From Paludibaculum fermentans (GTDB lineage Bacteria; Acidobacteriota; Terriglobia; Bryobacterales; Bryobacteraceae), in contig NZ_CP063849.1 of NCBI RefSeq assembly GCF_015277775.1, positions 1,798,001 to 1,862,000 on the forward strand: a stretch of 64,000 nucleotides of DNA. The letters are read 5' to 3'. The notes under the pieces were generated by a model. It did no database searches. It was not told the DNA's origin and saw nothing but the letters and a program-made list of their open reading frames with translations. Numbering within the stretch: position 1 is the first letter of the stretch; each line of letters starts with the position of its first letter. The translations under genes and the position numbers were made by a program. Positions 19,489-45,554 of the stretch are shown piece after piece.

Positions 19489-20004
19489 CTATTCTAATCG
19501 CCCGGCCGCCTCGCCCACGAGCCTCTTTCGCTTCTGCGCGCGCCACAACCACGGCGGCTCCGGATCCGCGTCCGCCCACAAACCCAACCCCGACTCGCGC
19601 GCCCGCTCTTCCAGATCAGCCAGCACCGCATCCCGCGGCGCATACCGCCGGTACCACCATGCCAATCCTTCCGCCACCAACACCCGGTTCAGGTTCCGGC
19701 CATCCGGCAGGATCACCTGCCCGACAACCCGCCCGTACCGGTCCCGCCCTGACGCCACATTGCTCTCACGCACCACGACCACGCTCCCAAACACCAGCAC
19801 CGACACCCGCTCCCGGGCCTTGCCCCCGAACGCCTGTCCCAACTCCGGACAGTCCACTCCGTCCAGACGCACCCGTACCGGCCGTCCCACTCGTAAGATC
19901 GTGATCGTGTCGCCGTCCTGGATCCCGACTACTTTCCCGGTCCAGGTCTCTCCGTTCGCCAGGGCAATGACAGCCAGCAGAACAGGGGCGAGCCTGCGCA
20001 GCAC
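19489..20004 (-). CDS. Exported thermonuclease (SNase-like)
   Basis: 171 residues with a GTG start and a signal peptide ([18 protein letters not shown]). The SNase fold is shown by [13 protein letters not shown] (Asp-rich calcium site), [18 protein letters not shown] (catalytic Arg and acidic residue), and [14 protein letters not shown] (second catalytic Arg). It hydrolyses DNA or RNA outside the cytoplasm. The C-terminus ends with an unusual basic Trp-rich tail ([12 protein letters not shown]). It overlaps no gene and precedes yjbQ by 7 bases. Confidence 0.92.
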
Positions 20005-20070
20005 GCCCCCATTCTATCCCGAGCAGTCTGTGGCGGAAGTCCAGCTGGCCGGCAACCCCCAGCCGCGCCG

Positions 20071-20418
20071 TCACTTCGTATAACTGAAGATCAATACAGA
20101 CGTGAACGCCACCGGCTGGCCTTCTTTCGTGAAGGGCGTGAACTTCCACTGCTTCGCAGCCGCCACACTCGCGGTTGTGAACATTGCATTGCCCTTCAAC
20201 ACCTTCGCCTCCGTCACGTCGCCCTGCGGACTCACAACAATCGCCACCTCCTGCTGACCCTGGATGTTCAACTGCCGCGCCGCAATTGGGTACTCCGGCG
20301 TCACCCTCTTCGCCGCTCTCGACAAGGCGTTCGCGGTCGTCAGGCTCGTTCCATCCTGCGCCGGACACGCCGGCCCCAACATCACAAACAATGCAATGAC
20401 CGATAGCATTACCCGCAT
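20071..20418 (-). CDS. Small exported TonB C-terminal domain protein
   Basis: 115 residues from MRVMLSVIALFVML, with a signal peptide followed by one TonB-C-like domain: VTPEYPIAARQLNIQGQQEVAIVV, SPQGDVTEAKVLKGN and AAAKQWKFTPFTKEGQPVA. TonB-C domains without the long Pro-rich linker and membrane anchor are common as stand-alone periplasmic proteins in Acidobacteria; role unknown. The same domain ends the M56 peptidase encoded about 2 kb away. Confidence 0.85.
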   Translation of the reverse strand: MRVMLSVIALFVMLGPACPAQDGTSLTTANALSRAAKRVTPEYPIAARQLNIQGQQEVAIVVSPQGDVTEAKVLKGNAMFTTASVAAAKQWKFTPFTKEGQPVAFTSVLIFSYTK

Positions 20419-20535
20419 ATTTTGTTGTCTCCTGTTCCAAGACGATCCATCGCTCGCACGATTCATCCGCGCGGGCTGACCATGCCGCACTCATCGGTTC
20501 GAGGGCAGCCGCCTTGAAAGGAAATATTTGGGAGT

Positions 20536-21459
20536 CTATCGGGCCCGCAGAACCCGGATCCACTCGTCGTACAACCGCGCCGCCGCCTCGCCCCCCAGCG
20601 GCGTCGCATACTCCGGCAGACTGAACACCACCGGAGCATTCTTCGAATACCGCCCCGCCAGCTCCACCTGCCGCCTGATCCGCTCGAGGCCCGCCGGCCG
20701 TGCCTGAAACCCCTGCGCACCCGGCACTGCCTCGAAACTCTCGACGACTACCGTCAACCGCCGGCCCAGGCTCCGCTCCAGCGCCTGCAAATACCCCGGC
20801 CAGTTCTCCAACGTCAGCTTCCCTGCCCCGATCCCGTCCTGAAACAACACCCGGTCCAGTCCGCCGCCCGGCACCTGCCGCCAGAACCGCCCCAACTCCG
20901 CCGGAGCCATCCGCCCATTCGAAAATCCGCTCATCGCCAGGGGCCGCAACCGCCGCCGCAGCCCTTTCACATGCTCGTGCAACCCGGCCGCCGCAGCCCC
21001 CTGCCAGTGCACATCATCGATCTCCTCCGGCAGATACCACCCGCGGAACGCCCGCTGCCGCCGCACGACACTCTTCAACTCAGCCGCGAGAGCCAGGTGC
21101 GCCTCCGCCGTCCTCCGCAGCAGCGCCTCACCAGCCCCCTCCTCCAACGCCCGCCACCACGCCGGCTCATACGCCAACCCGACCCACACCCCCATCCCCG
21201 CCCGGTCCGCCAACTCCAAAACCCGCCGCGTCACGCCCGAGTAATCGATCCCGTCATACCGCGTCCACTGGATCACCACCTCGCGCACCCGCAGCTCCGC
21301 CAGATACCCGAACAGCGCCTGCCACCGGGCTCCATCCCAATCTTTATGGAAGTTCCAGAACTGAAGAAACGTCCCGCCCACCAGCGGAGCACCCTGCCCG
21401 GCTGCCCATCCGGCCGCCAGCGCCAGCATCGCCCGGCGGCTTTTGTTCGCCAAAGTCAC
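20536..21459 (-). CDS. DUF4434-like secreted glycosidase-type protein
   Basis: 307 residues. The N-terminus (KSRRAMLALAAGWAAGQGAP) looks like a twin-arginine signal. The mature part matches the DUF4434 pattern: GGTFLQFWNFHKDWDGARW, then VREVVIQWTRYDGIDYSG, GWYLPEEIDDVHWQG and VLFQDGIGAG, typical of a TIM-barrel glycoside hydrolase-like fold with acidic residues at strand ends (PEEID; FQDGIG). No substrate can be assigned. It is divergent from blaI across a regulated promoter region. Confidence 0.7.
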   Translation of the reverse strand: MTLANKSRRAMLALAAGWAAGQGAPLVGGTFLQFWNFHKDWDGARWQALFGYLAELRVREVVIQWTRYDGIDYSGVTRRVLELADRAGMGVWVGLAYEPAWWRALEEGAGEALLRRTAEAHLALAAELKSVVRRQRAFRGWYLPEEIDDVHWQGAAAAGLHEHVKGLRRRLRPLAMSGFSNGRMAPAELGRFWRQVPGGGLDRVLFQDGIGAGKLTLENWPGYLQALERSLGRRLTVVVESFEAVPGAQGFQARPAGLERIRRQVELAGRYSKNAPVVFSLPEYATPLGGEAAARLYDEWIRVLRAR

Positions 21460-21523
21460 GCCTGCAGAATATCAGCAGAAATTTTTCCTCGCCGGGAACC
21501 ACATCGCCAGACCGGTGTCCATA

Positions 21524-21559
21524 TTGACAGCCGCGCGGAGCGGTGCTAGTTTTCTAGCA
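21524..21559 (+). promoter_or_regulatory. blaI-M56 promoter with BlaI-type operator
   Basis: TTGACA (21524-21529) is followed after 17 bases by TAGTTT (21547-21552). The -10 lies inside a perfect inverted repeat TGCTAG-TTTT-CTAGCA (21544-21559), a likely self-binding site for the BlaI-like repressor encoded just downstream. BlaI/MecI proteins are known to repress their own operons in this way. Confidence 0.65.
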
Positions 21560-21579
21560 GGCTGGCAGAAAACCCGCAT

Positions 21580-21975
21580 ATGAACGCAACCCGTAAAACA
21601 CCTCTCAATCTCAGCCGCCGCGAGCGGCAGATCATGGAGCTTCTCTACCGCCTCGGACGCGCCACCGCCTCCGACATCCACCAGGCCATGCCGGACCGCC
21701 CCAGCTACTCCGCCGTCCGCGCGCACCTCCGCACCCTCGAGGACAAAGGCCACGTGCGCCACGAAGCCGAGGACCTGCGCTACGTCTACTCCCCCACCAC
21801 CCAGCCCGCCCAGGCCCGCAAAACGGCCCTGCGCCACATGGTGGATACCTTCTTCGGCGGATCCCCGGCCCGCGCCGCCGCGGCTCTCCTCGACAACCGC
21901 TCCGCGCGCCTCACCGACGCCGAACTGGACGAACTCTCATCCCTCATCGACAAGGCAAGAAAGGATGGACGCTGA
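21580..21975 (+). CDS. BlaI/MecI/CopY family transcriptional repressor
   Basis: 131 residues with the winged-helix BlaI fold: LSRRERQIMELLYRLGRATASDI, VRAHLRTLEDKGHVRHEAEDLRYVYSP (recognition helix and wing), and a C-terminal dimerisation region containing VDTFFGGSPARAAAALL. Family members repress an adjacent M56 peptidase gene and are cleaved when the peptidase senses its signal. The coding end overlaps an alternative start of the M56 gene, so the two are coupled. Confidence 0.94.
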   Translation: MNATRKTPLNLSRRERQIMELLYRLGRATASDIHQAMPDRPSYSAVRAHLRTLEDKGHVRHEAEDLRYVYSPTTQPAQARKTALRHMVDTFFGGSPARAAAALLDNRSARLTDAELDELSSLIDKARKDGR

Positions 21976-21976
21976 C

Positions 21977-23545
21977 ATGACACCCACGGCCGCCACCATG
22001 CTGCTGTTCGCGCTGAAGGCCTCACTGCTCATCGGACTCGCCGCCCTGGCCGCCCTCGCCCTGGCCCGAGCCTCGGCCGCCGCCCGCCACCTCGCCTGGC
22101 TCGCCGGCTTCAGCACAGCCCTCACCTTGCCGGTCGCCTCCACCCTCTTCGCCCTGCTGCCGGTCGCCTGGTCGCCTCATCTCGCGCCGGCCATCGCACC
22201 CGTAGCCGCCACCGCCCGCACCGTCCTCACCATCACCGCCGAGGCCCCCGGTTGGGCCGCCGCCGGACGCATCGTCCTCTGGATCTGGGCCGCCGTCGCC
22301 GCCCTGCTCATCCTCCGCATCGCCTTCGCCCAGTACCGCGCCGGCCGCCTCGCCCGCCAATCCAAACCCTGGCGCGGCTTCGAGAATCAGCCCGTCCGCA
22401 TCTGCCCGCTCATCGACGTCCCCGCCGTCTGCGGACTCGCCCACCCCGTCATTCTTCTGCCCGATTCAGCCGCCACCTGGCCGGCCGACCGTCTCGAACT
22501 TGTCCTCCGGCACGAAGCCATGCACGCCCAGCGCCGCGACACGCTCTCTCAACTTGTCTCCAACCTGGTCTGCGCGCTCTACTGGCCTCTCCCCTGGGTC
22601 TGGTTCGCCGCCGGGCGCCTGCGGGTAGAGGCTGAACTGGCCTGCGACGACGCCGTCCTCCGCTCTGGTGAACGCGCGTCCGACTACGCCGGCCACCTGA
22701 TCGATATTGTCCGTGGCCTCTCCGGCCGCGAACGCGTCCCACAAGGAGGGATCCCCATGGCCCGAATCTCTGACCTCGAGCGCCGCCTTCGCGCGATGCT
22801 CAACCCCGAAATGAACCGCCGCCCGGCAGGCCGCCGCATGGTCCTCACCGCCGCCGTGGCCGCACTCTCCATCCTCGCCCCACTCGCCGCACTCCGCCTG
22901 CCGGCCTCGGCCGCCGCCCCCGGAGGCATCACCGGAGTCGTCCGCGACGTCAGCGGAGCCGCCGTCCCCCACGCCCGCGTCACCCTCACCTTCCCAGGCT
23001 CCGACCGCAAAGAAGTCGCCACCTCCGACCCCGCCGGCCGCTTCACCTTCGAGCCCCTGCCCGACGGCAACTACGCCGTCCGCGCCGCCGCCCCAGGCTT
23101 CGCCCTCTCCGCGATCAAACAGCTCTCCCTGTCTGGAGGCGCTGGAACCGACGTCGAGATCCTGCTCCAGCCCGGCCAAGTCAGTGAATCCCTCACTGTC
23201 ACCGGAGAAGGCACACCCAAAGCTGCACCCGCGCCATCCGGCCCGCCCACCCGCATTCGCGTCGGTGGCAACGTGCAGGCCACGAAGATTGTGAATATGG
23301 TGCGGCCCGTCTACCCGCCCGAGTGCAAAGCCGCCGGCGTGGAAGGCACAGTCCTGATGCGCGCGGTCATCTCCCGCGAGGGCGACATCCTCTCCCTGCA
23401 GCGCATCAACCAGATGGTGGACGACCGGCTCGCGCAAGCCGCCACCGAAGCGGTCTCCAAGTGGAAGTATCAGTCGACGCTACTCAACGGCCAACCCATC
23501 GAAGTGATCACGGAAATCGAAGTGAACTTCGTCCTCAGCCACTAG
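21977..23545 (+). CDS. M56 (BlaR1-like) peptidase with carboxypeptidase-like and TonB-C domains
   Basis: 522 residues from the second ATG; the first, 12 bases upstream, has no room for a ribosome site. Layout: four N-terminal membrane spans with the zinc motif HEAMH and acidic EAELACDD (M56 peptidase, about 1-300), a further membrane segment, a carboxypeptidase-regulatory-like beta sandwich (GITGVVRDVSGAAVPHARV...), and a C-terminal TonB-C domain (VRPVYPPECKAAGVEGTVLM...). It replaces the penicillin-binding sensor of BlaR1, so the trigger is probably not a beta-lactam. It forms a sensor-repressor pair with the upstream BlaI protein. Confidence 0.9.
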   Translation: MTPTAATMLLFALKASLLIGLAALAALALARASAAARHLAWLAGFSTALTLPVASTLFALLPVAWSPHLAPAIAPVAATARTVLTITAEAPGWAAAGRIVLWIWAAVAALLILRIAFAQYRAGRLARQSKPWRGFENQPVRICPLIDVPAVCGLAHPVILLPDSAATWPADRLELVLRHEAMHAQRRDTLSQLVSNLVCALYWPLPWVWFAAGRLRVEAELACDDAVLRSGERASDYAGHLIDIVRGLSGRERVPQGGIPMARISDLERRLRAMLNPEMNRRPAGRRMVLTAAVAALSILAPLAALRLPASAAAPGGITGVVRDVSGAAVPHARVTLTFPGSDRKEVATSDPAGRFTFEPLPDGNYAVRAAAPGFALSAIKQLSLSGGAGTDVEILLQPGQVSESLTVTGEGTPKAAPAPSGPPTRIRVGGNVQATKIVNMVRPVYPPECKAAGVEGTVLMRAVISREGDILSLQRINQMVDDRLAQAATEAVSKWKYQSTLLNGQPIEVITEIEVNFVLSH

Positions 23546-23584
23546 TCCCCATGGGGACGTTCCAGCGGCCCCAAAACGCCGCAT

Positions 23585-23666
23585 GGGGACGTTCCTGTCT
23601 GGCCCAAGACACTGCAAATCCGGGAGTCTCAACGCCCCCCGCACGTGGCCAGACCGGAACGTCCCC
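23585..23666. repeat. GGGGACGTTC palindromic element, copy 1 (82 bp)
   Basis: Ends GGGGACGTTCCTGTCTGGCC and GGCCAGACCGGAACGTCCCC are inverted repeats matching at 19 of 20 positions. A solitary extra GGGGACGTTCC sits 32 bases upstream. It lies between two convergent genes (M56 peptidase and the hydroxyproline operon). The middle differs from the copies near 28 and 30 kb, but length and ends are the same. Confidence 0.85.
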
Positions 23667-23694
23667 CAAAACCGAAAGCCCCCACCAACCCCGT

Positions 23695-24582
23695 CTACGG
23701 CCGTGTCGCCAACGCCTCCGCAATCACTGCCTTCGCCTCCGCCAGTTCCGCCCCGGTCAACTCCAACCGAGGACCCCGCACCCGCGCATTCCCCATCCCC
23801 ACCATCTCCTGCGCCAGCTTGATCAACTGCACAAACTTCGGCACCGTATCCATCCGCAGCAGCGGCAGGAACCACTTGTATATCTCGAACGCCCGCACCT
23901 TGTCCCCGCGAATCGAGGCATCGAACAACGCCACCGACTCCGCCGGAAACGCATTCACCAAGCCCGCAATCCACCCCGAAGCCCCAGCCATCGCAGCCTC
24001 GAAAATCAGGTCATCGACGCCCACCAGGATCTTCAACCGGCTGCCCGCCAACGCCCGCAGCGCGGCCACCCGCCGCACATCCGCGCTCGATTCCTTAATC
24101 GCCACCAAAGTCGGATACTCGGCTAGCAACTCCATCACCTGCTCCGGCACGAAATCCGTCTTGTACGCCACCGGATTGTTGTACAGCATGCACGGCAGCG
24201 GAGTCGCCTGGAACACGGCCGCCACATGCGCCTTCATCTCGCGCCAGTCACCGCAGTACACATACGGCGGCAGCACCATCAAGCCGCTGCAGCCCGCATC
24301 GGCCGCCATTTTGGCGATCCGCACCGCCTCATCCGTGCTCAGCGCCGACACCCCGGCCACCACCGGAGAATTCGGCCCAATCGCCTTCACGGCCGTCTTC
24401 AGCACGGCCTCTTTCTCTTCAAATGTCAGCGTCGCGCCCTCGCCCAACGACCCCAGCGCCACCACGCCGGAGCACCCGTTCTCGATCTGCCACTGGCAGT
24501 GCCGCGCGAAAAACTCGTGATCCACGCTCATGTCTTCCAGAAATGGCGTGGTAATGGCCGGAATAACTCCGTTCCAGTTCAT
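23695..24582 (-). CDS. lhpC: Dihydrodipicolinate synthase-family enzyme, probable hydroxyproline-pathway deaminase
   Basis: 295 residues starting MNWNGVIPAITTPF; an upstream in-frame ATG adds 39 unlike residues. DapA/NAL fold: GSLGEGATLTFEEKEAV, Tyr134 in MLYNNP and the Schiff-base Lys163 in VAIKESS. In hydroxyproline catabolic clusters the DapA-like member is 1-pyrroline-4-hydroxy-2-carboxylate deaminase, which yields alpha-ketoglutarate semialdehyde. It is the last gene of the five-gene operon, overlapping the upstream gene by 4 bases. Without that context it could be any DapA-family aldolase or lyase. Confidence 0.75.
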   Translation of the reverse strand: MNWNGVIPAITTPFLEDMSVDHEFFARHCQWQIENGCSGVVALGSLGEGATLTFEEKEAVLKTAVKAIGPNSPVVAGVSALSTDEAVRIAKMAADAGCSGLMVLPPYVYCGDWREMKAHVAAVFQATPLPCMLYNNPVAYKTDFVPEQVMELLAEYPTLVAIKESSADVRRVAALRALAGSRLKILVGVDDLIFEAAMAGASGWIAGLVNAFPAESVALFDASIRGDKVRAFEIYKWFLPLLRMDTVPKFVQLIKLAQEMVGMGNARVRGPRLELTGAELAEAKAVIAEALATRP

Positions 24583-25766
24583 GATTGCCTCGTTTCTATC
24601 AAGCTCTCGACCTTCACCGGGAACACCGGCGGGCGCATCGAATCCGCGCCCCAGCCAAACAAAAATCGTGTCGCTCCACCGCACACGCGCCCCTGGCACG
24701 GACCCATGCCGCAGCGCGTCTGCAGCTTCGCCTCGCGCCAGCTTTTCATGCCCGCCAGCGCGCCGCGCGTCACATCCTCACAGCGGCACACCAGCGTCTC
24801 CGCCTGCGCCAGCTTCCGCAGTTCGGCCCGCGGTTCAAACGCCCGCGCCAACCCGTCCGCAAATGCATGCGTCCGCGCCCGTTCCGCAAACAACTGTTGC
24901 GCCAGCCCCTGCAAACCCGCCGCCGCCAGCCCGGCGATCTCGCCTTCCACCCGCGACTTTTCCACCCCGCCGATTCCGGTCACCTCGCCCGCCGCGTAGA
25001 CACTATCGACGCTCGTCTCCTGCCACTCATCGACGACCACCGCGCCCTGCGTCAAATGGCACCCCAGCAGCGCCGCCAGCTCCGTATTCGGTGTCAGCCC
25101 ATAGCCCACCGCTAGAGCGTCGCAGTCCTGTTCGACCACCCGCCCGCCGCAGCGCATTCTGACCCGCTCAACACTACCGCGCCCCGTAACCGACTCCACC
25201 CAACTCCCCGTATAGAACGGCACGCCCAGCAGCGACATCATCAGGCCCGCGCCCTGCGCTAGCTTGCCAGGCTCCAGCAGCAGTCGCGCGCCGAAGCCAG
25301 CCATGCGCGTCCTGTCCGCCTGTTCGACCACGGCCGACACCGCCGCCCCGCGCTTCCGCAGCAGCGACGCCACCGCCAGCAGCAGCGGACCCGAGCCCGC
25401 CACCACCACCCTCTTCCCCGCCACATCCAAGCCCGACTTCACCAGCGCCTGCATCCCGCCCAGCCCGAACACGCCAGGCAGCGTCCAACCCGGGAACGGC
25501 ACAAACAACTCCCGAGCTCCCGTGGCCAGCACATAGCTCCGGGCCTCCGGCAATGTATCCGTGGCCACACAGCCCGTCCGCAGCTCCGCACCGGACTCCG
25601 CAAACCGCTCCAGCCAGGGCTGCGCCGCATCGTTCCGCCAGATCTGCCCGCCCGCCGACGGGTTGTCGTCCAGCACCAGGACCCGCGCACCCGACTCCGC
25701 CGCCCGGCACGCCGCCGCAATGCCCGCCGGACCCGCGCCCACCACCACCACTTCCCAGCGCCTCAT
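24579..25766 (-). CDS. lhpE: NAD(P)/FAD oxidoreductase with BFD-like [2Fe-2S] domain, D-hydroxyproline dehydrogenase subunit
   Basis: 395 residues. The N-terminus VVVVGAGPAGIAAACRAAESG is a FAD-binding Rossmann motif; a second, GKRVVVAGSGPLLLAVAS, binds NAD(P). The C-terminus has a BFD-like cluster site: VCRCEDVTRGAL followed by TRCGMGPCQGRVCGG, with cysteines for a [2Fe-2S] cluster. This is the amino-acid dehydrogenase alpha-like subunit found with a 2Fe-2S ferredoxin-like protein and a DAO oxidase in bacterial D-hydroxyproline dehydrogenases. Overlaps both neighbours by 4 bases. Confidence 0.82.
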   Translation of the reverse strand: MRRWEVVVVGAGPAGIAAACRAAESGARVLVLDDNPSAGGQIWRNDAAQPWLERFAESGAELRTGCVATDTLPEARSYVLATGARELFVPFPGWTLPGVFGLGGMQALVKSGLDVAGKRVVVAGSGPLLLAVASLLRKRGAAVSAVVEQADRTRMAGFGARLLLEPGKLAQGAGLMMSLLGVPFYTGSWVESVTGRGSVERVRMRCGGRVVEQDCDALAVGYGLTPNTELAALLGCHLTQGAVVVDEWQETSVDSVYAAGEVTGIGGVEKSRVEGEIAGLAAAGLQGLAQQLFAERARTHAFADGLARAFEPRAELRKLAQAETLVCRCEDVTRGALAGMKSWREAKLQTRCGMGPCQGRVCGGATRFLFGWGADSMRPPVFPVKVESLIETRQS

Positions 25767-26008
25767 GAGGTCTTCACCTGCATTCCATCCGCGCACAGCG
25801 TCTGGCAGCTCCGGCAATGCTCCACGCCGTCAATCGTCACCCGGCACTCAAAGCAAATGCCCATCCCACACAGCGGAGCCCGCTCCTCGCCCGTCACCGA
25901 ATGCCGGAACGCCGTGACACCCGCATTCCACAGCGCCGCCGCGACCGTCGTACCCGCGTCCACCTGCACCGGCCGCCCGTCCACCATCACTGTCAGCCGT
26001 TTACTCAT
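25763..26008 (-). CDS. lhpF: (2Fe-2S)-binding subunit of D-hydroxyproline dehydrogenase
   Basis: 81 residues. VMVDGRPVQVDAGTTVAAAL is a ferredoxin-like beta-grasp start, and the cluster cysteines appear in APLCGMGICFECRVTIDG and CRSCQTLC. Small proteins of this type transfer electrons between the FAD subunits of amine/imino-acid dehydrogenases. It overlaps the downstream FAD subunit by 4 bases and the upstream DAO subunit by 8. Confidence 0.88.
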   Translation of the reverse strand: MSKRLTVMVDGRPVQVDAGTTVAAALWNAGVTAFRHSVTGEERAPLCGMGICFECRVTIDGVEHCRSCQTLCADGMQVKTS

Positions 26009-27110
26009 GCATGCACCGCCCGGGCAGATACGGCTCCACCGGAATCGGAGGCGTGCGCTTCAGAATCTGGTCCGCCAGCAGCCGCCCCGTCCCCAGCGAA
26101 GTCGTGATGCCCAAGCCTTCGTGGCCCGTCGCCAGCCACTCCCGCTGCGTGCCCGGCACCGGACCAATGAGCGGCAGCTTGTCCGGAGTCGCCGCCCGGA
26201 AACCCGTCCACGTCCGGATCGCGGTCAAACCCGTGATCTCCGGCATATACTCCGCCGCACGGCTCAACATGCGGCTGAGAATCGGCCGGTCCACCCCGCT
26301 GTGCTCCACGCCATACTGCCGCGACGACCCGATCAGCACCTGGCCCGTCTTCCGGGGCTGCGCGTTGAACGCCACCGAGTCCCCACTCAAGGAGTGCGCA
26401 CTCTTCAGGTACCCCAACTCGATCAACTGATGCCGCACAAACCCGGGATACCGGTCCGTAATCACCAGATGCCCCTTCCGCGGAGCCACCGGGATTCCCG
26501 GAGTCAGCCGCACCGCCTTCGCGCCCGCTGCATTCACCACGACCCCGGCGTCGACCACCTCACCATCCGACAGCGTCACCCCACCGTCGCGCAAGGTAAT
26601 CACGCCTACACCGGAGACCAATGTCGCGCCGCACGCGCGCAGCAGCCAGCTCGCCGCCACCGGAGGATACACCACGGAATCGCCCGGCACCAGCAACCCG
26701 CCCGCCATGCCCTTCCGCAGGTGCGGCTCTGCTTCTTCCAACTGCCGCCGGTCCAGCACCTCCACCGGCACGCCGCGCTCTTCATAGAACGCCTGCTTGC
26801 GCCGTACCTCGGCCATCTCTTCCTCGTCCGCCGCCACCCACAAGGTGCCGCAGGGCAGGTGTTCGACGCCCGCCGGCATCGCGCCCACCCGCTCCTTCCA
26901 CATCCGAGCCGAGAGGGAAGTGAGTTGGAACTGAGCCTCGGAATCGTCCATGACGACGACATGCCCCATGCCCGCCGCGGTCGCGCCGCCGCCGATCACC
27001 GACTCCTCAATCACCATCACCGACAAGCCGCCGGCCGCGCACTCATAGGCGCACGCCGCCCCCACGATCCCTCCGCCCACAATCACGACATCGGCGGAGC
27101 GCCTGCTCAT
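26001..27110 (-). CDS. lhpB: FAD-dependent DAO-family oxidoreductase, D-hydroxyproline dehydrogenase catalytic subunit
   Basis: 369 residues from [20 protein letters not shown]; an earlier in-frame ATG would add 6 residues. DAO fold: GxGxxG motif, an [21 protein letters not shown] segment and the C-terminal [18 protein letters not shown]. The domain oxidises imino or amino acids. Grouped with lhpE- and lhpF-like subunits, it is most likely the substrate-binding subunit that converts cis-4-hydroxy-D-proline to pyrroline-4-hydroxy-2-carboxylate. The start overlaps the epimerase stop by 4 bases. Confidence 0.82.
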
Positions 27111-28048
27111 CCCCGGATCCCCCAACAAAACGGATCATCCTCGTTTAAAACAAGCCGCGCCTCCGCGTTCACAAAGGCGCTGCCGCGAATACTCGGATAA
27201 ACCTGCCCGTCCGCCGCCCGCACGGTGCCTTCAAACACGGAGCCCACGATGCTCTCCTGCCGCCAAACCTGCCCCTCGGCGAGCTTCCCGTCGGCATGCA
27301 GACAAGCCAGCTTCGCGCTGGTGCCGGTCCCGCAGGGCGACCGGTCATACGCCTTCCCGGGACACAGCACGAAGTTCCGGCTATCGGCCACCTGGGAAGA
27401 GCCAAACACTTCGATGTGGTCGATCTCCTGACCATTCGCACCGGTAATCCCGCGAGCCGTCAGGGACTGCCGCACCTTCCACGTGAATTCGGTAAGCGCC
27501 TCGAGATTCCGGAACTCGACCCCCACCGGAGACGAGCCAATCAGGTAAAACCAGTTCCCGCCCCAGGCGATATCGCCCACAACGGTCCCATAGCCCTTCA
27601 CATCCACCGGCACGTCTTTCGCTAACCGGTAGCTGGCGACATTCGACACCGTGACGTCCCCCGACTCATGCAGCTCCGCGCTCACTTCCCCCACCGGAGT
27701 CTCGATCCGCACGGTCCCGGGAACAATCCGTTCGAGATAGGCGAGCGTGGCGACGAGCCCGATGGTCCCGTGGCCGCACATCCCCAGGTATCCGACATTA
27801 TTGAAGAAAATGACGCCTGCGGCGCATTCGCGATCCACTGGATCGCACAGCAGAGCCCCCACGACGGCATCAGAGCCGCGCGGCTCATTCACAACGGCCG
27901 ACCGGAACGCATCGTGGTCGGTCCGGAACACAGCCAACCGTTCCGCCATGGACCCCGTGCCCAAATCCGGTCCGCCGCCAATCACCACCCGGGTCGGTTC
28001 CCCGCCCGTGTGCGAATCCACCACATGCACTTCCCGCCGTATTTTCAT
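27107..28048 (-). CDS. lhpA: 4-hydroxyproline 2-epimerase (proline racemase family)
   Basis: 313 residues starting [21 protein letters not shown], the conserved family start. Two catalytic cysteines are present: Cys91 in GMCGHGTIG and Cys239 in [10 protein letters not shown] Cys at both positions separates true racemase/epimerases from the Thr-containing dehydratases. In this operon the role is epimerisation of trans-4-hydroxy-L-proline to cis-4-hydroxy-D-proline. First gene of the operon; upstream lies the repeat-rich gap. Confidence 0.9.
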
Positions 28049-28133
28049 CGCTTCCTCTTCAGTATCCAACGACCCGCGGTAACCCACGCAAAGGAATCAT
28101 CCCGAGGCGACGTGCCCGTGGGGACGTGCCAGT

Positions 28134-28215
28134 GGGGACGTTCATCCCCTGTCCCGAAACGCAAACTATTCCGACCAGCGAAGCCGCCGAAGGTGGACAG
28201 GGCGTGAACGTCCCC
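28134..28215. repeat. GGGGACGTTC palindromic element, copy 2 (82 bp)
   Basis: Bounded by GGGGACGTTC and GAACGTCCCC, with an internal pair CCCTGTCC (28147-28154) / GGACAGGG (28195-28202). It agrees with the copy at 30464-30545 at 74 of 82 positions by direct comparison. A near copy of the left end (GGGGACGTGCC) sits about 15 bases upstream. Confidence 0.9.
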
Positions 28216-28289
28216 CACCCCCGCGTCCTCCGCCAGTCCTCCCGAACAACACCATCGCATTCAGACAACTCCGCAACCTCAACCACCCC

Positions 28290-28340
28290 CCCTCCAGCAT
28301 TACCCCCGGCGCAGCCGAAGGCGAAGCCGGGGCCAATCCC
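28290..28340. repeat. C-rich hairpin repeat, copy B
   Basis: CCTCCAGCATTACCCCCGGC is followed by a variant loop and GAAGCCGGGGCCAATCCCAA. The CCCCGGC and GCCGGGG arms can pair. The loop is longer than in copies C and D. Confidence 0.75.
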
Positions 28341-28395
28341 AACTCGAACGTAACCCCCACCACCCATCAACACCCCCATCCCAACACCGCCAACT

Positions 28396-28446
28396 GCCCC
28401 CCCAGCATTACCCCCGGCGCAAGCCGGGGGCCCGCCCCAATCCCAA
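28396..28446. repeat. C-rich hairpin repeat, copy C
   Basis: CCCCCCCAGCATTACCCCCG then CGCAAGCCGGGGGCCCGCCC. The arms CCCCCGGC / GCCGGGGG form an 8-bp stem around GCAA. The 40-odd bases around it are identical to copy D about 2.2 kb away. Confidence 0.85.
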
Positions 28447-28505
28447 CGTCACTCTCCACCACCCAACAACTCCACCTACCCTCCATCCCTCAACCAACTC
28501 CCCCG

Positions 28506-30245
28506 TCACTCATAAAACCGCCAACTCGAACGAAACTCCCGGCTCAAAGCCCCCCCCGTCAAACTCGCCCGCACCAGCTCAATCGGAATCGAATTCTCCT
28601 GCAGAATCCGGTCATGGAACGCCCGGTTCGTCATCTTCCCGGAATCCACCAGCTCCTTATGCAGCGCCCGAATCTGTAATCCACCCAACAGATACGCAGC
28701 CTGGTACAGCGGCCCATAGTCATCGCTCTCAAACGACCGCCGAACCTCCCCCGCCGCGTTATCCCGCTCATGCCCCACCCGCTCCACCAGAAAATCGATA
28801 CACTCCTGGGCCGTCATCTTCTCCAGGTGAAAACTCAGCGAGAAGATGATCCGCGCACACCGGTGCATCCGCCAGAACAGCGCGCCCACCCGGTCCTCCG
28901 GGCCTTGCTGGAACTTCATGTCCCACAGCAGCATCTCCCAGTACAACGCCCAGCCTTCCACCCCGAACGGCGTATTGAACCCTTGCCGCCACGGCCGGTA
29001 CCGGTCACTCATAAACAACTGCAGATGATGCCCGGGAATCAGCTCATGGAACACCGTCGCCCGCGAGAAGTGAATATTGTTCCCCCGCATCGACATGAGC
29101 TTCTGTTCCTGCGTCATGTCATCTGTGGGATAGGAAACACTGATCACCTCCCCACCGGTGAAGAACGGATTCACCAGTTGCCGCGACGGAGTCATCATCT
29201 CCATCCGCCAGATCTCCTTGGCCAGCGGCGGCACGGTCACCAGATCATGTTTCTCGACAAACGTTTCGGCCTCAAGAGCCAGTTGCCGGATCAGCTCCGG
29301 CTGCTGACCCGGCTCCACATGCAGCGTTTTGACCTTCTCCAGCGCCTGGTGCCAGTCGTCGCCGAACCCCATCGCCCGCGACGCCCGTTTCATCTCGTTC
29401 TCGCACCAGGCAAACTCCTTGTTCGCCAGAGCAATCAACTCCTCGGGCGTGTAGGGAATCATCTCGGCCTGCAATTCACTGATCAGGGCCTCCCGTCCAA
29501 TCGGAGAACCCACCACGGTAGTCTTGTCATCCGGCTTGACGCCGACGATCTTCTCGCGCAAAAACACGGCATACCCGTCCAATGCCTTGTCCGCGCTTTT
29601 GTAGGGATCAGCGGCCCACCACGTAAACACGGGATCGTACCCCGCGTAGAACGTATACCAGTGCTCCAGAGTCCGCCGCAGCGTCTGCACAGCCGTGGCC
29701 GCCCGATTGGCAGTCGTTTTCTTGATCCCCGAAACCCCCGGCTTCAACTCTGCCTCAATCGACTTCCGCAGCGCCTCAATCTGTTTCCGCACGGCATCCA
29801 GCGTAGCCGCCGACTTCGCCGAATCCACCTTCTCCATGCGCTGCCGAGTCTCTTCCAGGTCCACAATTGCCGCCCGGAACGGCAGCAGTGCGGCGGTCTC
29901 GGCATCGATCTTTGCGCGGAATTCCAACTGCCGTTGCGACCGCAGGATGTCATTCCGCAGCAGCAGCCAGTCGATGCGGCTCTCCTGGTTCAGCTTCTCG
30001 AAATCGAACGCCTCCACCCGAGCCAGCCATTCGGTATTGAACTTCTGGAACCGCGCCCGCCGAGCCTCGGAAGACTCCACGCGATACCGCCGTTCGAGCG
30101 CCGCCCGGTCGTTCTGATACCGCTCGATCGCCGGCCGCAGCGCACTCTGATTGCCATCAAACTCAGGATCCGCGCCAAAAACGGCGCCAACGGAAACACT
30201 CCACAGGCCAAAGACCAGGACGCGGAGAAGCAAAGGGACCTCCAT
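28506..30245 (-). CDS. Exported DUF885 family putative peptidase
   Basis: 579 residues with an N-terminal signal (LLLRVLVFGLWSVSVGAVFG). DUF885 proteins are mostly helical and carry a zinc-peptidase-like motif, here FHELIPGHHLQLF, preceded by SRATV and followed by EGWALYWEMLL, where the Glu is the likely third ligand. The length is normal for the family. Several members behave as metallo-carboxypeptidases, but this is inferred by family only. It is flanked on both sides by repeat-filled gaps. Confidence 0.88.
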   Translation of the reverse strand: MEVPLLLRVLVFGLWSVSVGAVFGADPEFDGNQSALRPAIERYQNDRAALERRYRVESSEARRARFQKFNTEWLARVEAFDFEKLNQESRIDWLLLRNDILRSQRQLEFRAKIDAETAALLPFRAAIVDLEETRQRMEKVDSAKSAATLDAVRKQIEALRKSIEAELKPGVSGIKKTTANRAATAVQTLRRTLEHWYTFYAGYDPVFTWWAADPYKSADKALDGYAVFLREKIVGVKPDDKTTVVGSPIGREALISELQAEMIPYTPEELIALANKEFAWCENEMKRASRAMGFGDDWHQALEKVKTLHVEPGQQPELIRQLALEAETFVEKHDLVTVPPLAKEIWRMEMMTPSRQLVNPFFTGGEVISVSYPTDDMTQEQKLMSMRGNNIHFSRATVFHELIPGHHLQLFMSDRYRPWRQGFNTPFGVEGWALYWEMLLWDMKFQQGPEDRVGALFWRMHRCARIIFSLSFHLEKMTAQECIDFLVERVGHERDNAAGEVRRSFESDDYGPLYQAAYLLGGLQIRALHKELVDSGKMTNRAFHDRILQENSIPIELVRASLTGGALSREFRSSWRFYE

Positions 30246-30463
30246 GCAAGCGCTTTAGTATTTCTACCGCGCAAGCCGCCCCCAGCGCCAGTCCCGGCGC
30301 CATCCGGCCCGCACGCTAATCCCCTGTCCCCCGCGATGGGGACGTTCATCCCACCGGTTCCCTTCATCCCCGATCCCAAAGCGCTGCGGACGTTCATCCC
30401 ACGAATGCCCTTCACTCCCAGTCCCCATGGGCTGGGGATGCCCATCCCCATGCCCCCCTCGCT

Positions 30464-30545
30464 GGGGACGTTCATCCCCTGTCCCAAAACGCAAACTGTT
30501 CTGAGAAACGAAGTCGCCGCAGGTGGACAGGGCGTGAACGTCCCC
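30464..30545. repeat. GGGGACGTTC palindromic element, copy 3 (82 bp)
   Basis: Same ends and internal CCCTGTCC / GGACAGGG pair as copy 2, and the same total length of 82 bases. Eight substitutions separate the two, all in the loop-side region. Confidence 0.9.
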
Positions 30546-30559
30546 TACGCCCCCAACTG

Positions 30560-30606
30560 CCCCCCCAGCATTACCCCCGGCGCAAGCCGGGGGCCCGCCG
30601 CAACAC
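30560..30606. repeat. C-rich hairpin repeat, copy D
   Basis: CCCCCCAGCATTACCCCCGG with CGCAAGCCGGGGGCCCGCC following. It is identical to copy C over the shared core and lies directly beside palindromic element copy 3. Confidence 0.85.
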
Positions 30607-30676
30607 AGAAAACGCCACCACCCCCAGCAGCGACCATCGAGCCAACCAACAAAAGGAATCGCCGAGGAGCAATCTC

Positions 30677-32731
30677 CTACTTCCGCCGCAACTTCAAAGT
30701 CATCCCCACCGTAATCGTCCGCCCATACCCCGGAGTCGCATGAATCCGCGCCATCGGCTCCTCCCCCTGCAACCGCGACTCAAAGTAATTCTGCGTCTCG
30801 TAGTAAAACCGCCCCAGCAGATTATCCACCCCAACATGGAAATCGATATTCCGGCTCACCCGCCGCGACACCCACAGATCAAACACGGTGTGCCCGGACG
30901 CCACCACGGAAGCATCCTCCCCATCCAACCGGTAGTGATCGATCGCCCGCATCCGCAACGACCCGCTCCAACTCCGCCAGCCCGACAGCGTCACTCCCGC
31001 ATTCGCCACAAAATGCGGAGCGCTATCCACATACACCCGCGGCGTCCCCAGGTAAAACGCGTTCGTTACCTTGGTGATCCCGCCATTGAACGCAACAAAC
31101 CGGTTCAGCTCCACCGAAGCCTTCGTCTCAAACCCATACGACCGGCTCGGCCCCTTGAACTCAATCGTCCCGTCATCCGGGATATACACCTGCTCGTTCG
31201 AACGCGCGATGTGAAACCCGGCGACCTGCGCTCCAAACCGCCCCGACCGGAAAGCCACGCCGGCCTGGGTGAAGTCAGTCGTGGCGACCCGCTCCATCTG
31301 CGGATTCTTCACAATCGCCCGAGCATCCGAAGTGGAAATCCCCCGTCCGTAATTCGCAAACACCGTCAACGGCACGCGATGCGAGGGCGTATACGAAGCA
31401 CTAGCCTTCGGCTGCCACCGGCCCGCACTTTGCACTCCGCTTCCCAACGGATCCACCCGGTCCGCCAGGTCAAACCGGAACGCATCAAACCGCAGCCCGC
31501 CCCCCAGCAGCAGTTTCCCCTGCAGCAGGCTGAAATTCTCCTGCACATACCCGGCGCCGTTCGTAATATCCGCCTGCGCCCGCGACGCCACACCCGTTGG
31601 CACCCGGTCCACCCGCGGATACAACCCGACGTTGATCTGGTTCGCGTGGAAGTTCGCGCCCGTCGACAGATACCCGGTCATCCCCAGGAATTTGTGCGGC
31701 CGCAGGTACTGCACATTGGCGCCCTGCTGCAGCCGCGAGTCGTGCTGCTGGAACGCATCGCCATTCACGGGATCATTCAGATAAAACGTAAAGTCCATGA
31801 AATGATCGAACAGCGACCGTCCCACAAACGCATCCACCTTCCACACCTGCCCGTTTTCGCCCTCCTGCCGCAGATACCCCGCCAGCGTCCCGTTCCATTG
31901 CTTGATTCCATTCGTCGGATTCACCGCGCCATACGGACTCAGCCGCCCCGCGATGATCTCATCCACCGGCAACTGCCCCGAGGAGTATGAATCCGCCCGG
32001 CCCGCGTTGAACTTCATCGCCACCTGGCGCCGCTCCCCAATCCGCTGCGTGACGTTGGCCGTCACATTGTCCCGCCGGTACCCCAGCGGATTCAAAAAGG
32101 GACCATTCGAGAACGACCCTTCATACGCAAACAAGGCATCCGTATTCTGCAGCGTAGGGCTATACGAGAAGAACCCGCGAGCGGTGTCATACGACCCGCC
32201 CTGCATCCGGAACGTCAGCTCATCCGGCATCGTGTCCCGAGTCAGAATGTGCACCACGCCCAGCCCGCTGAAATCGCCATATTCCGCGCTGAACGGCCCG
32301 TTGATCAGGTTCACTTCCTTGATCAGCTCCGGCGACAGGCTCTTCAGGCTGCCCAGGTAGCCCTGCCCGTGCCCCTGCGTCGCCTGGTTCTGCCCCACGC
32401 CATCGGTCAGCACCTTCAACCCGCCGCTCACCCCGCCATGATCCAAATTGAAGCCGAACCGCCGGATCTCCACGCTCTTCGCGCCGCCCTCGTGCTGCCC
32501 GGCATTGATGCCCGCATCCAGGATGTGAAAGATTTGGTCGTCCCGCGAAAACAGCGTCTTCTGCACCACCTCGCCGTTCCGCCGGTCGATCGTCACCTCC
32601 ACCGGACTGCCCTGCACAACAACACTCTGATGCAGCACCGGAATCACCGGAGCCTCGTCCTTCGGCTTGGCATCGTCCTGCGCCGCCGCAGCCGCGGCCA
32701 GCGTCAACAGGCATATCGAAAAGCGGTACAT
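30677..32731 (-). CDS. TonB-dependent outer membrane receptor
   Basis: 684 residues from MYRFSICLLTLAAAAAA (signal peptide); AAAGGA lies 5-6 bases before this ATG, which favours it over the one 6 codons earlier. The plug domain (about 40-170) has VVVQGSPVEV, FGFNLDHGGVSGGLKVLTDG, LINGPFSAEYGDFSGLGVV; the remainder is a beta-barrel of alternating strands with aromatic girdles. It would import a large or scarce substrate with energy from TonB-ExbBD. The last residue is Lys, not the usual aromatic. Divergent from an ECF sigma factor gene. Confidence 0.88.
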   Translation of the reverse strand: MYRFSICLLTLAAAAAAQDDAKPKDEAPVIPVLHQSVVVQGSPVEVTIDRRNGEVVQKTLFSRDDQIFHILDAGINAGQHEGGAKSVEIRRFGFNLDHGGVSGGLKVLTDGVGQNQATQGHGQGYLGSLKSLSPELIKEVNLINGPFSAEYGDFSGLGVVHILTRDTMPDELTFRMQGGSYDTARGFFSYSPTLQNTDALFAYEGSFSNGPFLNPLGYRRDNVTANVTQRIGERRQVAMKFNAGRADSYSSGQLPVDEIIAGRLSPYGAVNPTNGIKQWNGTLAGYLRQEGENGQVWKVDAFVGRSLFDHFMDFTFYLNDPVNGDAFQQHDSRLQQGANVQYLRPHKFLGMTGYLSTGANFHANQINVGLYPRVDRVPTGVASRAQADITNGAGYVQENFSLLQGKLLLGGGLRFDAFRFDLADRVDPLGSGVQSAGRWQPKASASYTPSHRVPLTVFANYGRGISTSDARAIVKNPQMERVATTDFTQAGVAFRSGRFGAQVAGFHIARSNEQVYIPDDGTIEFKGPSRSYGFETKASVELNRFVAFNGGITKVTNAFYLGTPRVYVDSAPHFVANAGVTLSGWRSWSGSLRMRAIDHYRLDGEDASVVASGHTVFDLWVSRRVSRNIDFHVGVDNLLGRFYYETQNYFESRLQGEEPMARIHATPGYGRTITVGMTLKLRRK

Positions 32732-37878: not shown

Positions 37879-39059
37879 GCTTTCGGGCGGAGAGCGAGGT
37901 GGAGAACCAGCCACGAGGCCATGGGCAACACGGCGACTCCGAGGCAGACCGGAGTGAAGCCGTAGCGATCGACCACGCGGCCGACCCCACTCGAAAAGAC
38001 GCCTTGCAGCAAACCGTAGACGCTGGTCAGCCCCGAGACGGCGAAGGCGGCATGACCCGCTCCAAAGAGGTCGAGGGGCAAAGCGTAGATGTTGACACTC
38101 GAGGCGACGCAGGCAAAGAACGACAGGCAGATGAACGCGGTGGCAAGGCCCGGGGTGGGCATGAAGGGCACCAACGCTCCGATCAGCAGCAGCAGCGAGC
38201 CGCAGAGGATGACACGCAAACGGGCGGGGGTCACATCGGCTTTCCGGCCGGCCCAGCGCATGGTCAACCAACCGCCGAAGAGGCCGCCGGCCGTGGCAAA
38301 GATGGGCGGGATCCAGGCGAGTTGGAAGTTGGCTTCGTGCTGCGGCATGTGGTGAACGCGCACGAGGAATACTGTAGTCCAGTTCACCCACAGCGAGTAG
38401 ACCGACATGAGGAGGACGTTTGAGGCGAGCAGGGCCCAGTAGCGGCGGTCTTGCAGGATCGCCCGGGCCGGCGACGGCGGTTTCGTTTCGGGCAGGCGGG
38501 GCACGCGCTTCGAGACGACGATCCAGAGCGGGATCCAGAGGAATCCAAATGCCCCGAGCATGACGAAGGCCATGCGCCAACCGTAGAGCCGGGAAATTGT
38601 TTCGGCGGCCAGGGGGGCGGCGATCGCGCCCAGGGTGAGTCCGATTTGAAACACGGCTGCGCCCATGGCGCGTTCGCGGGGCGGCAGGTAGATGGCAGAG
38701 GCCTTGCCGGTGGCCGGGATGCCGCCGGATTCGCCCAAGCCGAGCAGTCCGCGTGTAGTCATGAGGCCGGTGAGCGAACTGGTGAAGCCGGTGGCCATGC
38801 CGGCAAAGGACCAGAGCCCCACGGAGAGCGAGGCGCCGAAGGGCAGGCCGAGGCGATCGATGAGCAGGCCGGCCACTGGCGCAGCCAAGGCATAGGTGAG
38901 CGAGAAGACGAGGATCACGTCGCCATAGCCGCCGGCGGTGATGTGGAACTCGCGCATCAACTGGGGCGCCAGCGCGGCCAGGATCTGGCGGTCCATGAAG
39001 TTGAGGGCGTTAGCCAGCGCGAAGACGGCGATCGCCAGCCAACGTAGTTGGGAGACCAT
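37875..39059 (-). CDS. MFS transporter
   Basis: 394 residues, with about 12 hydrophobic segments and the two-bundle MFS form. The N-terminus reads FALANALNFMDRQILAALAPQLM (first span with a D-R), LIDRLGLPFGASLSVGL in the first cytoplasmic loop, and LGLGESGGIPATGKASAIYLPPRERA. This matches the ACS-type anion:cation symporter group (hexuronate/glucarate-like) in tone, but the substrate is unknown. It overlaps the upstream TPR gene by one base (TAATG) and the downstream glycosyltransferase by 4. Confidence 0.9.
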   Translation of the reverse strand: MVSQLRWLAIAVFALANALNFMDRQILAALAPQLMREFHITAGGYGDVILVFSLTYALAAPVAGLLIDRLGLPFGASLSVGLWSFAGMATGFTSSLTGLMTTRGLLGLGESGGIPATGKASAIYLPPRERAMGAAVFQIGLTLGAIAAPLAAETISRLYGWRMAFVMLGAFGFLWIPLWIVVSKRVPRLPETKPPSPARAILQDRRYWALLASNVLLMSVYSLWVNWTTVFLVRVHHMPQHEANFQLAWIPPIFATAGGLFGGWLTMRWAGRKADVTPARLRVILCGSLLLLIGALVPFMPTPGLATAFICLSFFACVASSVNIYALPLDLFGAGHAAFAVSGLTSVYGLLQGVFSSGVGRVVDRYGFTPVCLGVAVLPMASWLVLHLALRPKA

Positions 39060-40858: not shown

Positions 40859-40862
40859 GGCT

Positions 40863-42494: not shown

Positions 42495-42501
42495 CGGCGT
42501 G

Positions 42502-43302
42502 TCACAGCCAGTCGATGGATTCGGAGGCGCGGGCCGGTCCGCCGACGACGCGAACAAAGATGTCTTCCAATGTTTCGGGGGTGCCGGGGCGGTCGGGATC
42601 GGCGGCGACGCCGGCGCGGAGTTCGGAGAGAGGGCCGTCGACCGCGATGCGGCCCTGGTTGATGATGGCGACGCGGTCGCAGAGGCGTTCGACGACCTCG
42701 AGGACGTGCGAGGTGAGGAAGATGGTGGCGCCCTGGCGGACCTGATCGAGGAGGATGTCCTTCATGAGGCGGGCGCCGACGGCGTCGACGCCTTCGAAGG
42801 GTTCGTCGAGGAGGTAGAGTTCAGGCCGGTGGATGAGGGCGGCGGCCATGGCGACGCGTTTCTTCATGCCCTTGGAGTATTCGCCGATGAGTTTACGGCC
42901 GGCGCCGTGGAGTTCGAAGAGTTCGAGGAGTTCGGAGGTGCGCTGGTGGGCGAGGGGGCGGCCGAGGCCATACATGCGTCCGACGAATTCAATGAACTCG
43001 CCGCCGGTGAGGTGATCGAAGAGAAGGGTGTCGTCGGGTACGAGGCCGATTTTGCTTTTGATGGCGACGGCATCGCCGGGCATATCGTGGCCGAGGATGC
43101 GGATGGTGCCGGAGGTGGCGGGCGCGAGGCCCATCAGCATGCGGATGGTGGTGGTTTTGCCGGCGCCATTGGGGCCGAGGAAGCCGAAGAAGCAGCCGCG
43201 TTCGACGCGGAGGGTGAGTCCGTCGACGGCGGCTTTCTCGCCGTAAACCTTACGCAGGTCTGTGACTTCGATGGCGGGCCCGGGTTCTGGAAGCACTCGC
43301 AA
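42502..43302 (-). CDS. ABC-2 type transporter ATP-binding protein
   Basis: About 266 residues. Walker A GPNGAGKTT, Q-loop region (IGLVPDDTLLFD; the Q is replaced), signature YSKGMKKRVAMAAAL, Walker B LYLLDEP with the D-loop EGVDAVGA, and H-loop SHVLEVVERL. Start is uncertain: the frame begins with TTG, with GTG two codons later. It heads an operon ATPase-permease-TPR-MFS-GT-RimI, all coupled by 8 bases or less. Confidence 0.9.
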   Translation of the reverse strand: MRVLPEPGPAIEVTDLRKVYGEKAAVDGLTLRVERGCFFGFLGPNGAGKTTTIRMLMGLAPATSGTIRILGHDMPGDAVAIKSKIGLVPDDTLLFDHLTGGEFIEFVGRMYGLGRPLAHQRTSELLELFELHGAGRKLIGEYSKGMKKRVAMAAALIHRPELYLLDEPFEGVDAVGARLMKDILLDQVRQGATIFLTSHVLEVVERLCDRVAIINQGRIAVDGPLSELRAGVAADPDRPGTPETLEDIFVRVVGGPARASESIDWL

Positions 43303-43453
43303 CTATCGTAGCTGGTTAGTCAGGGGATTGACATTAGGGCCCGGGGTAGGTGGTTCGTTCTAAGATGCCGTCATGACCGCCGGATAGGCAAAAAGAGATT
43401 AAAATCCCGATTTGGGACTGGATGGGCAGCAGAAAGCGGCCGATAGAGAAACC

Positions 43454-44332: not shown

Positions 44333-44426
44333 GGGGGGTGGGGATACCCACAATGCCTCGAGAATCCGGAGACCAGGCGACCCCAGGAGCTACGAATCCG
44401 CTGACGGGCGTCAGACCGGATTACGA

Positions 44427-44738: not shown

Positions 44739-44754
44739 TCCCTATATTACTCCG

Positions 44755-45517: not shown

Positions 45518-45554
45518 GCCACCAGTTTGCTACAGCGGATCGGCGATTGCGTAG

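Follow-up and report, generated by a model that had tools for sequence, protein, structure and literature searches.

What are the four short palindromes that lie between genes in one stretch of the chromosome of the soil bacterium Paludibaculum fermentans, and how did they come to be there? The stretch analysed here, called the window, comprises 64,000 nucleotides (NZ_CP063849.1, positions 1,798,001 to 1,862,000). A first-pass annotation, made from the sequence alone, had described four intergenic elements in it with shared inverted ends, and had attributed them either to a structural constraint or to a mobilised unit resembling repetitive extragenic palindromes (REPs) or miniature inverted-repeat transposable elements (MITEs). 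Its positions, its lengths (82, 82, 82 and 81 bp) and its inverted ends were exact (Table 1). Perfect 10-bp ends are present on all four, the elements at 28134 and 30464 are identical at 74 of their 82 positions, and the paired arms are kept, with 19, 18, 18 and 15 of the first 20 positions self-complementary. Our own gene calls, from a simple home-made finder based on codon usage, also placed the four between genes. The elements belong to a real family that is not due to chance. We lean slightly towards reading its copies as miniature mobile elements that form hairpins, are non-autonomous and occur in low numbers, similar to REPINs (REP doublets forming hairpins) or to dimers of terminal inverted repeats (TIRs). 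As mobile elements they are probably old and akin to the REP repeats already known.

The family extends well beyond the window. The genome (G000; 9,532,094 bases in two contigs) contains the exact-ended pattern GGGGACGTTCN{55,80}GAACGTCCCC at 18 places, compared with 0 for a reversed control, and within the window GGGGACGTTC with at most one mismatch matched 18 times, against 7.5 ± 2.7 in shuffled sequence (0 of 100 shuffles reached 18). A covariance model built from the 18 exact-ended copies found 23 places in G000, reverse-strand matches of the same palindromes excluded (150 of 5,105 candidates were scored, and weak copies may be missed). Full-length copies numbered 21 (78-84 bp), 20 with E < 1e-9 and one, of 78 bp at 590741, with E 8e-7. 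The other two were short forms, 48 bp at 3091083 (E 6e-6) and 46 bp at 4657614 (weak, E 0.025). Searching 41 genomes under stricter filters gave matches in six, G000 counted, namely five of the nine of the genus (G000, G002, G006, G007 and G008) and G021 of the same family, with a total of 70 places. Presence was patchy. Copies in G007 mostly start with GGGGACGGTC or GGGGACAGTC, and those in G021 with GGGGACACGC. In a collection of named genomes (84,980 species with one genome each, possibly without records close to the window), a pattern of the shared core matched 21 stretches, 16 of them in two metagenome-assembled genomes of this group, one Paludibaculum and one acidobacterial; the five non-Paludibaculum loci gave no model match below E 0.24. 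The element at 30464 had no match in plasmid and phage collections. Short forms of 46-48 bp, with both arms and almost no core, were observed at L106:4084-4131, L107:4015-4060, L088:3985-4031, L086:3974-4020, L101:4046-4093 and L101:5507-5554; that of L107 is a weak match, and those of L107, L086 and one of L101 overlap a predicted gene. The first-pass annotation had missed three things: copies whose ends differ, partial copies next to elements, and the direction in which the elements point.

Read from the first arm (A), the element begins with GGGGACGTTC, which together with one variable pair forms an 11-bp helix with the second arm (B). Two unpaired bases follow on each side (one in some B arms), and then an 8-bp helix, most commonly CCCTGTCC/GGACAGGG, encloses a variable core of about 40 nt. 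Across 54 copies from four genomes (G000, G002, G006 and G007), 97.2% of cells were paired and both sides had changed in 10 of 19 pairs. The covariation score was 0.260, compared with 0.074 after shuffling and at most 0.046 with the partners slid, in an alignment fitted to the model, which favours structure; the first MAFFT alignment, of 18 copies, had already given 0.174 versus 0.061. One of five measures, the number of further pair types, was not above shuffles (18 vs 17.4). As in REPINs, the two inverted arms form one hairpin with compensatory changes, and the structural constraint proposed earlier is supported. The covarying helices point to pairing in single-stranded DNA or RNA, because a reader of the double-stranded palindrome would not need covariation. 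The arms are unequal: after the helix A continues AC(C), and B reads GGGGACGTTCATCCCCTGTCCCAAAAC, which by eye holds a small hairpin of its own. The arm pattern GGGGACGTTCN{2,6}CTGKC matched 36 times, 33 times inside elements, once in a tandem partial copy and twice elsewhere, giving no sign of a longer element with such ends; lone arms and an autonomous parent with the same ends were rejected on this count. No Rfam match reached the gathering score in the window, and a permissive search of 28000-31000 returned only two weak microRNA matches below it.

Placement and dispersal of the copies suggest a mobilised unit. In G000, 22 of the 23 copies were intergenic, including all 21 full-length ones, in loci with a predicted coding fraction of 82%; the exception was the weak 46-bp form. 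This extragenic location, also a mark of REPINs, applied to 62 of the 70 places over the six genomes, with 2 more at contig edges. Neighbouring genes in G000 were convergent at 8 copies, divergent at 4 and co-directional at 10. Elements showed no preference for a gene strand (5 co-directional, 5 antisense), nor by eye any pattern of orientation along the chromosome. Nine gaps between neighbouring copies were shorter than 25 kb (1.3 expected), and 8 of the 9 such pairs were co-oriented; loop similarity of the clustered copies (p 0.051) is not counted as support. Some distant copies were nearly identical: those at 598833 and 1828464 (96%, 1.23 Mb apart) and those at 5232137 and 6944845 (93%, 1.7 Mb apart). 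No flank match of at least 200 bp was found within 2.5 kb of such far-apart copies, so each of them dispersed as a unit, not as part of a duplicated segment. Duplicates in tandem that include flanking DNA are also present (G002:C57, G007:C32, G007:C236 and G021). We also saw 55-bp tandem repeats of half a core plus a B arm after an element (L042:5051-5105 and L093 of G002), with more decayed units behind them by eye. The first-pass annotation had named few further copies, or their origin in one segmental duplication, as outcomes that would tell against it; further copies are present, and one segmental duplication does not account for them. Its mobilised REP- or MITE-like unit gains support from the near-identical dispersed copies, the intergenic bias and the patchy presence.

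Most copies now appear to be old and inherited vertically, with the hairpin conserved wherever a copy survives. G002, a species about 88% identical, matches G000 at about 84-92% along most element regions, and 13 of the 21 full-length G000 copies have a same-place counterpart there, four of them (1828464, 2908467, 600329 and 4637721) placed by one flank only. Mean identity over these pairs was 98% in the outer arms, 90% in the inner arms, 79% in the core and 68% and 62% in the flanks (arms vs core, p 2e-4; core vs flanks, p 0.002), with the arm values inflated by the detectability required of both copies. All 20 outer bases were identical in 11 of the 13 pairs, which would be hard to obtain under neutrality at such a distance. 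At G002:C70:6013 a full element stands with a partial copy, and the same place in G000 has only GGGGACGAACGTCCCC, a 16-nt palindrome; gain and loss cannot be told apart here. G006 is without the element at the place of G000:7839062 and is too diverged there for the junction to be read. No clean empty site was found at L048 (flanks apart in G002 and G006), at L041 (only the right flank matched in G002), at L091 (flanks not contiguous in G000) or at the place of 598833, which in G002 is taken up by 1.9 kb of different DNA carrying a predicted gene.

The element also has a polarity, and this polarity is new. The strand on which the A arm comes first was the G-rich strand for 21 of 21 G000 copies at 0-60 bp (both flanks together), 20 of 21 at 60-200 bp and 20 of 20 at 2-4 kb. 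The same held in 63 of 64 copies at 0-60 bp and 51 of 53 at 2-4 kb over five genomes, and at 0.6-4 kb in 21/21 (G000), 18/18 (G002), 8/9 (G006), 14/14 (G007) and 2/2 (G021). After same-domain copies within 25 kb were merged, G000 still gave 14 of 14. Partial copies were one-sided as well: an arm profile (threshold 8 bits) run within 250 bp of the 70 copies picked out 16 places (17 hits), every one of them on the B side, or about 10 independent places with orthologous places counted once; shuffled flanks gave 0 or 1 hit per set (20 sets). On the other side, the A arm was immediately preceded by TG in 11 of the 21 G000 copies (local frequency 0.092, p 6e-7), in 10 of the 18 G002 copies (many at the same places as in G000) and in 4 of the 9 G006 copies. 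Before the B arm, TG was outside the six commonest pairs in G000, G002, G006 and G007 alike. Most G007 copies (L076-L084) carry by eye a further conserved stretch, approximately TTGGGGTGGACGCCTGG, directly before the A arm; nothing like it was seen in the G000 flanks. GGTG-like motifs near the elements lay on the A-first strand in 81-89% of cases, from which 21/21 would arise with a probability of 0.01-0.08, so that a target motif explains most of the orientation effect, perhaps not all. Target duplications of 3-9 bp were not above shuffles in 64 copies, in which 2-bp matches were slightly raised (p 0.011).

This orientation was set against the GC skew of the chromosome in a sample of 80 regions of 20 kb (L220-L299; 1.6 Mb with 2,500 masked bases and nothing beyond 8.0 Mb), which leaves out the grid slots at 1.805, 2.565, 4.655, 5.225 and 6.935 Mb that hold or adjoin elements. 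Mean skew per 2 Mb stayed within 0.021 of zero, the sign switched at 41 of 79 steps, and the skew correlation fell from 0.73 at 4 kb to 0.11 at 16 kb. Thus no replichore-scale GC skew was seen in the sampled 0-8 Mb; instead there were patches of about 10-40 kb with changing sign, correlated weakly with gene-strand bias (0.27, 40 of the 80 regions). Elements sat in the strongest patches. Skew was at least 0.15 in the four-kb surroundings of 18 of 21, compared with 12.75% of 400 sampled windows (p 2e-11), and T exceeded A in 19 of 21. On the A-first strand, skew at third codon positions was 0.38 in other-strand genes and 0.31 in same-strand genes, versus 0.00 and 0.10 at the other codon positions (53 and 61 gene entries, some of them entered under two elements), a mutation-like pattern. 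The 47 other intergenic inverted repeats in the sample had background skew only (0.083), so the skew is not explained by hairpins in general. Strong skew also occurred without an element, as in L274 (G000:C1:5510001-5530000), which was uniform at -0.20 to -0.30 over 20 kb. The element-free place of G006 keeps a skew of 0.21, and the G000 place with only the 16-nt palindrome keeps 0.17. Since skew persists at element-free places and strong patches occur without elements, the simplest account is that the patches precede and that the element inserts into the G-rich strand; strand-specific insertion fits the link between orientation and skew best. A 16-nt palindrome resembling an element remnant was observed at 5537041, 7 kb from L274, in DNA of opposite skew.

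Transposition of single strands by Y1/HUH enzymes should involve a hairpin substrate and a target recognised on one side, should fix the orientation and should leave the target unduplicated. On this basis, each unit would be one replicative dimer of two inverted, unequal arms around the core of about 40 nt. A Y1/HUH (IS200-like) transposase encoded elsewhere would recognise the hairpin in single-stranded DNA, acting in trans, and would excise or copy the A-first strand. Joining of that strand would then take place on the G-rich strand of the target site, 3' of a short stretch rich in G (often ...GGTG), an insertion that would give both the fixed orientation and the lack of a target duplication. 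Candidate enzymes are present: PF01797 (Y1_Tnp) matched 9 places in G000, so that a Y1/HUH enzyme exists in the genome, as for TIRYT dimers. All 9 lie outside the window. The earlier statement that the window has no transposase gene thus holds for the Y1 class; other classes were not searched for. A selection of seven Y1 proteins, drawn from four genomes, matched NF047646 (REP-associated tyrosine transposase, RAYT) below its cut-off. Among 16 Y1 loci compared, the inverted repeat around the gene scored at least 8 above the largest of 20 shuffles in seven (L130, L133, L134, L137, L138, L142 and L148), and all of these except L130 had GGGGAC-like starts, in several sequence classes. L144 was 4 above, L132 had a perfect 22-bp pair with a score within shuffles, and L016, L018, L019, L021, L131, L136 and L140 were within 2 of shuffles. 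A stop interrupts L019, L021, L142 and L153, and a further Y1 locus, L018, is short. A likeness by eye of GGGGACGTCCTGGYCTGTC at Y1 loci to GGGGACGTTCTGGTCTGTCC in one element was set aside as only a lead, with the profile at background.

Several observations weigh against mobile elements spread by a Y1 enzyme. A transposase gene flanked by the same ends, which the first-pass annotation had proposed to look for, was not found: no element stood at any of 34 Y1 loci in six genomes (36 sources, mostly 1.5 kb each side; best R1 hit, E 0.35), and the arm profile did no better than noise against the Y1-flanking ends. For this reason the enzyme is put forward here as a presumed one, and the RAYT-like enzyme in trans that was suggested earlier is possible in view of the Y1_Tnp genes. 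A GTAG foot is lacking: 1 of 70 copies has GTAG close to an end. G007 also lacks the TG foot (0/14), and GTGG lies across the A start in only 10 of the 21 G000 copies and across the B start in 4 (A start elsewhere: 8/18 in G002, 2/9 in G006 and 0/14 in G007). The G-rich tract on the A side could be part of the element and not of the target. Further, the copy number is low for REPs, there is overlap with a predicted gene at 6 of the 70 places, no copy was seen to move within a species, and the arms at shared places are more conserved than the neighbouring DNA, unlike those of a neutral relic.

That last observation is what one would expect of structured hairpins that serve the host and are maintained by selection irrespective of how they arose, for example as stabilisers of 3' ends, bidirectional terminators or cruciforms bound by protein. 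The graded identity from arms to core to flanks at the 13 shared places suits such a role. So do the 8 of 22 intergenic G000 copies between convergent genes, compared with 23 of 115 spacers of at least 30 bp (from the same loci, element spacers included), and the 12 of 22 copies within 40 bp of a predicted stop codon. However, the convergent excess is modest, REPs too are described as lying mostly downstream of genes (PMC3733652), and the compared pairs came from a model that requires good arms. With no preferred strand relative to genes, presence in only 6 of 41 genomes and no Rfam match at the gathering score, we consider a host function unlikely. A MITE of a target-duplicating DDE transposase, with GGGGACGTTC as its terminal inverted repeat, would account for the short length, the perfect 10-bp inverted ends and the lack of a gene inside. 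It is a good deal less probable than a host function, given the lack of 3-9 bp target duplications (the rise at 2 bp being slight), the covarying internal helix, the strict orientation and the absence of a longer element with such ends, as judged from arm matches and not from DDE genes.

The direction of cause between element and skew could also be reversed. Nicking or strand displacement at the hairpin might expose one strand over tens of kilobases, with C deaminated there, and the enrichment of skew around the elements, its presence in third codon positions whatever the gene strand, the excess of T over A and the merely background skew at other inverted repeats all agree with this. It is nevertheless very unlikely, because G006 without the element and G000 with only the palindrome keep their skew and strong skew occurs where no element stands, as at 5.510-5.530 Mb. 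That the hairpins, or machinery acting on them, drive or maintain the 10-40 kb domains of unequal strand mutation is likewise a long shot. Integron attC sites, or copies of one segmental duplication, might be suspected from hairpins of similar length with a variable end and from the clustering within 25 kb. They are refuted as a general explanation and keep almost no weight: RYYYAAC and GTTRRRY boxes near both ends occurred in 0 of 70 copies, and the dispersed copies share no flanks of 200 bp or more, local tandem duplicates notwithstanding. Mobile hairpin elements, inferred to have spread by a Y1/HUH transposase in trans, thus remain the reading that we carry into the comparison with known systems.

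Compared with REPINs as described (PMC3116915, PMC8049555), the family shares two inverted arms with conserved ends around a less conserved spacer of constant length, a hairpin with compensatory changes, intergenic location, the doublet as the unit, occasional tandem clusters and long persistence. It differs in lacking the GTAG foot and copies beside a Y1 gene, in its 21 copies against around a hundred or more, and in its bipartite 11+8 bp helix, unequal arms, one-sided partial copies and orientation locked to local GC skew. The TIR repeats of TIRYT transposases (TIRtrons; PMC3733652) resemble it in their GGGGAC start, their occurrence in the phylum Acidobacteria and their moderately abundant dimer families, and the Y1 genes found here have long inverted ends without GTAG as TIRtrons do. 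By eye, the TIRYT motif GGGGWSAS fits GGGGACAG of some G007 copies, whereas most copies, with GGGGACGG or the main ends GGGGACGT (misfit at position 7), depart from it. Unlike in TIRtrons, the arms were seen to flank no Y1 gene; the comparison with those published repeats is one of motif and description. Class 3 TnpA-Y1 enzymes (PMC6006769) also have Acidobacteria among their hosts and non-GTAG palindromes, and those with atypical structures reach about 600 copies in Solibacter usitatus (PMC6006769); the foot reported there is CnGA, which sets them apart by description and not by sequence. CGTC-tagged REPs (PMC3733652) are likewise palindromic dimers without a known dedicated transposase; they have 8-9 bp stems, 4-5 nt loops and an unpaired CGTC tag, and here CGTC lies inside a paired arm. 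Judged by titles and the beginnings of abstracts, literature on REPINs and RAYTs, acidobacterial REPs and MITEs, the 10-mer and skew with palindromes described neither this family nor an orientation with local skew, and a term search of the main text of the RepRanger paper on REPs (PMC12306157) found neither Paludibaculum nor Solibacter. Because a GTAG foot and a linked transposase were looked for and not found, we place the family beside REPINs and TIR dimers as a member of neither.

Within the window, the four elements recur at the same places in G002 and follow the two opposite skew domains (Table 1). The third element is the copy at 1828464 in G000 coordinates, and of the two partial copies beside it that at 30338-30351 was also found by the arm profile. 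The plus-strand skew domain drops to 0.05 at 44-46 kb.

Table 1 Elements, partial copies and GC skew domains in the window
Feature	Position	Strand	Context	Same place in G002
Full element, 82 bp, A arm first on minus	23585..23666	-	Between convergent M56 peptidase/TonB protein and DHDPS family genes	79/82
Full element, 82 bp, A arm first on minus	28134..28215	-	Between proline racemase-family and DUF885 genes	72/82
Full element, 82 bp, A arm first on minus	30464..30545	-	Between DUF885 and TonB-dependent receptor genes	Counterpart with degenerate A arm, 60/92 aligned
Full element, 81 bp, A arm first on plus	46849..46929	+	6 bp from M20 peptidase gene end	64/82
Partial B-arm copy, GGGGACGTTC start	23553..23584	+	B side of first element; by eye, below profile threshold	
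Partial copy, GGGGACGTGC with one mismatch	28120..28129	+	B side of second element; below profile threshold	
Two partial B-arm copies, 30338-30351 and 30388-30399	30338..30399	+	B side of third element	
Strong GC skew domain, minus strand G-rich, about -0.2 to -0.3	20000..32000	-	Holds three minus-strand elements	
Opposite GC skew domain, plus strand G-rich, up to +0.25	38000..55000	+	Holds plus-strand element	

These results expose patchy, mutation-like GC skew domains in the genome of P. fermentans. If the mobile reading is true, REPIN-like hairpins can persist on a species-level time scale with neither a linked RAYT nor GTAG ends. Their orientation could then be read against local strand asymmetry, which would provide a genomic handle on the strand used by Y1-type enzymes, and would do so in a bacterium without obvious replichore skew. 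Should the hairpins instead prove to be active strand markers, they would mark and orient local strand-asymmetric DNA processing in a chromosome whose sampled part has no replichore-scale GC skew.

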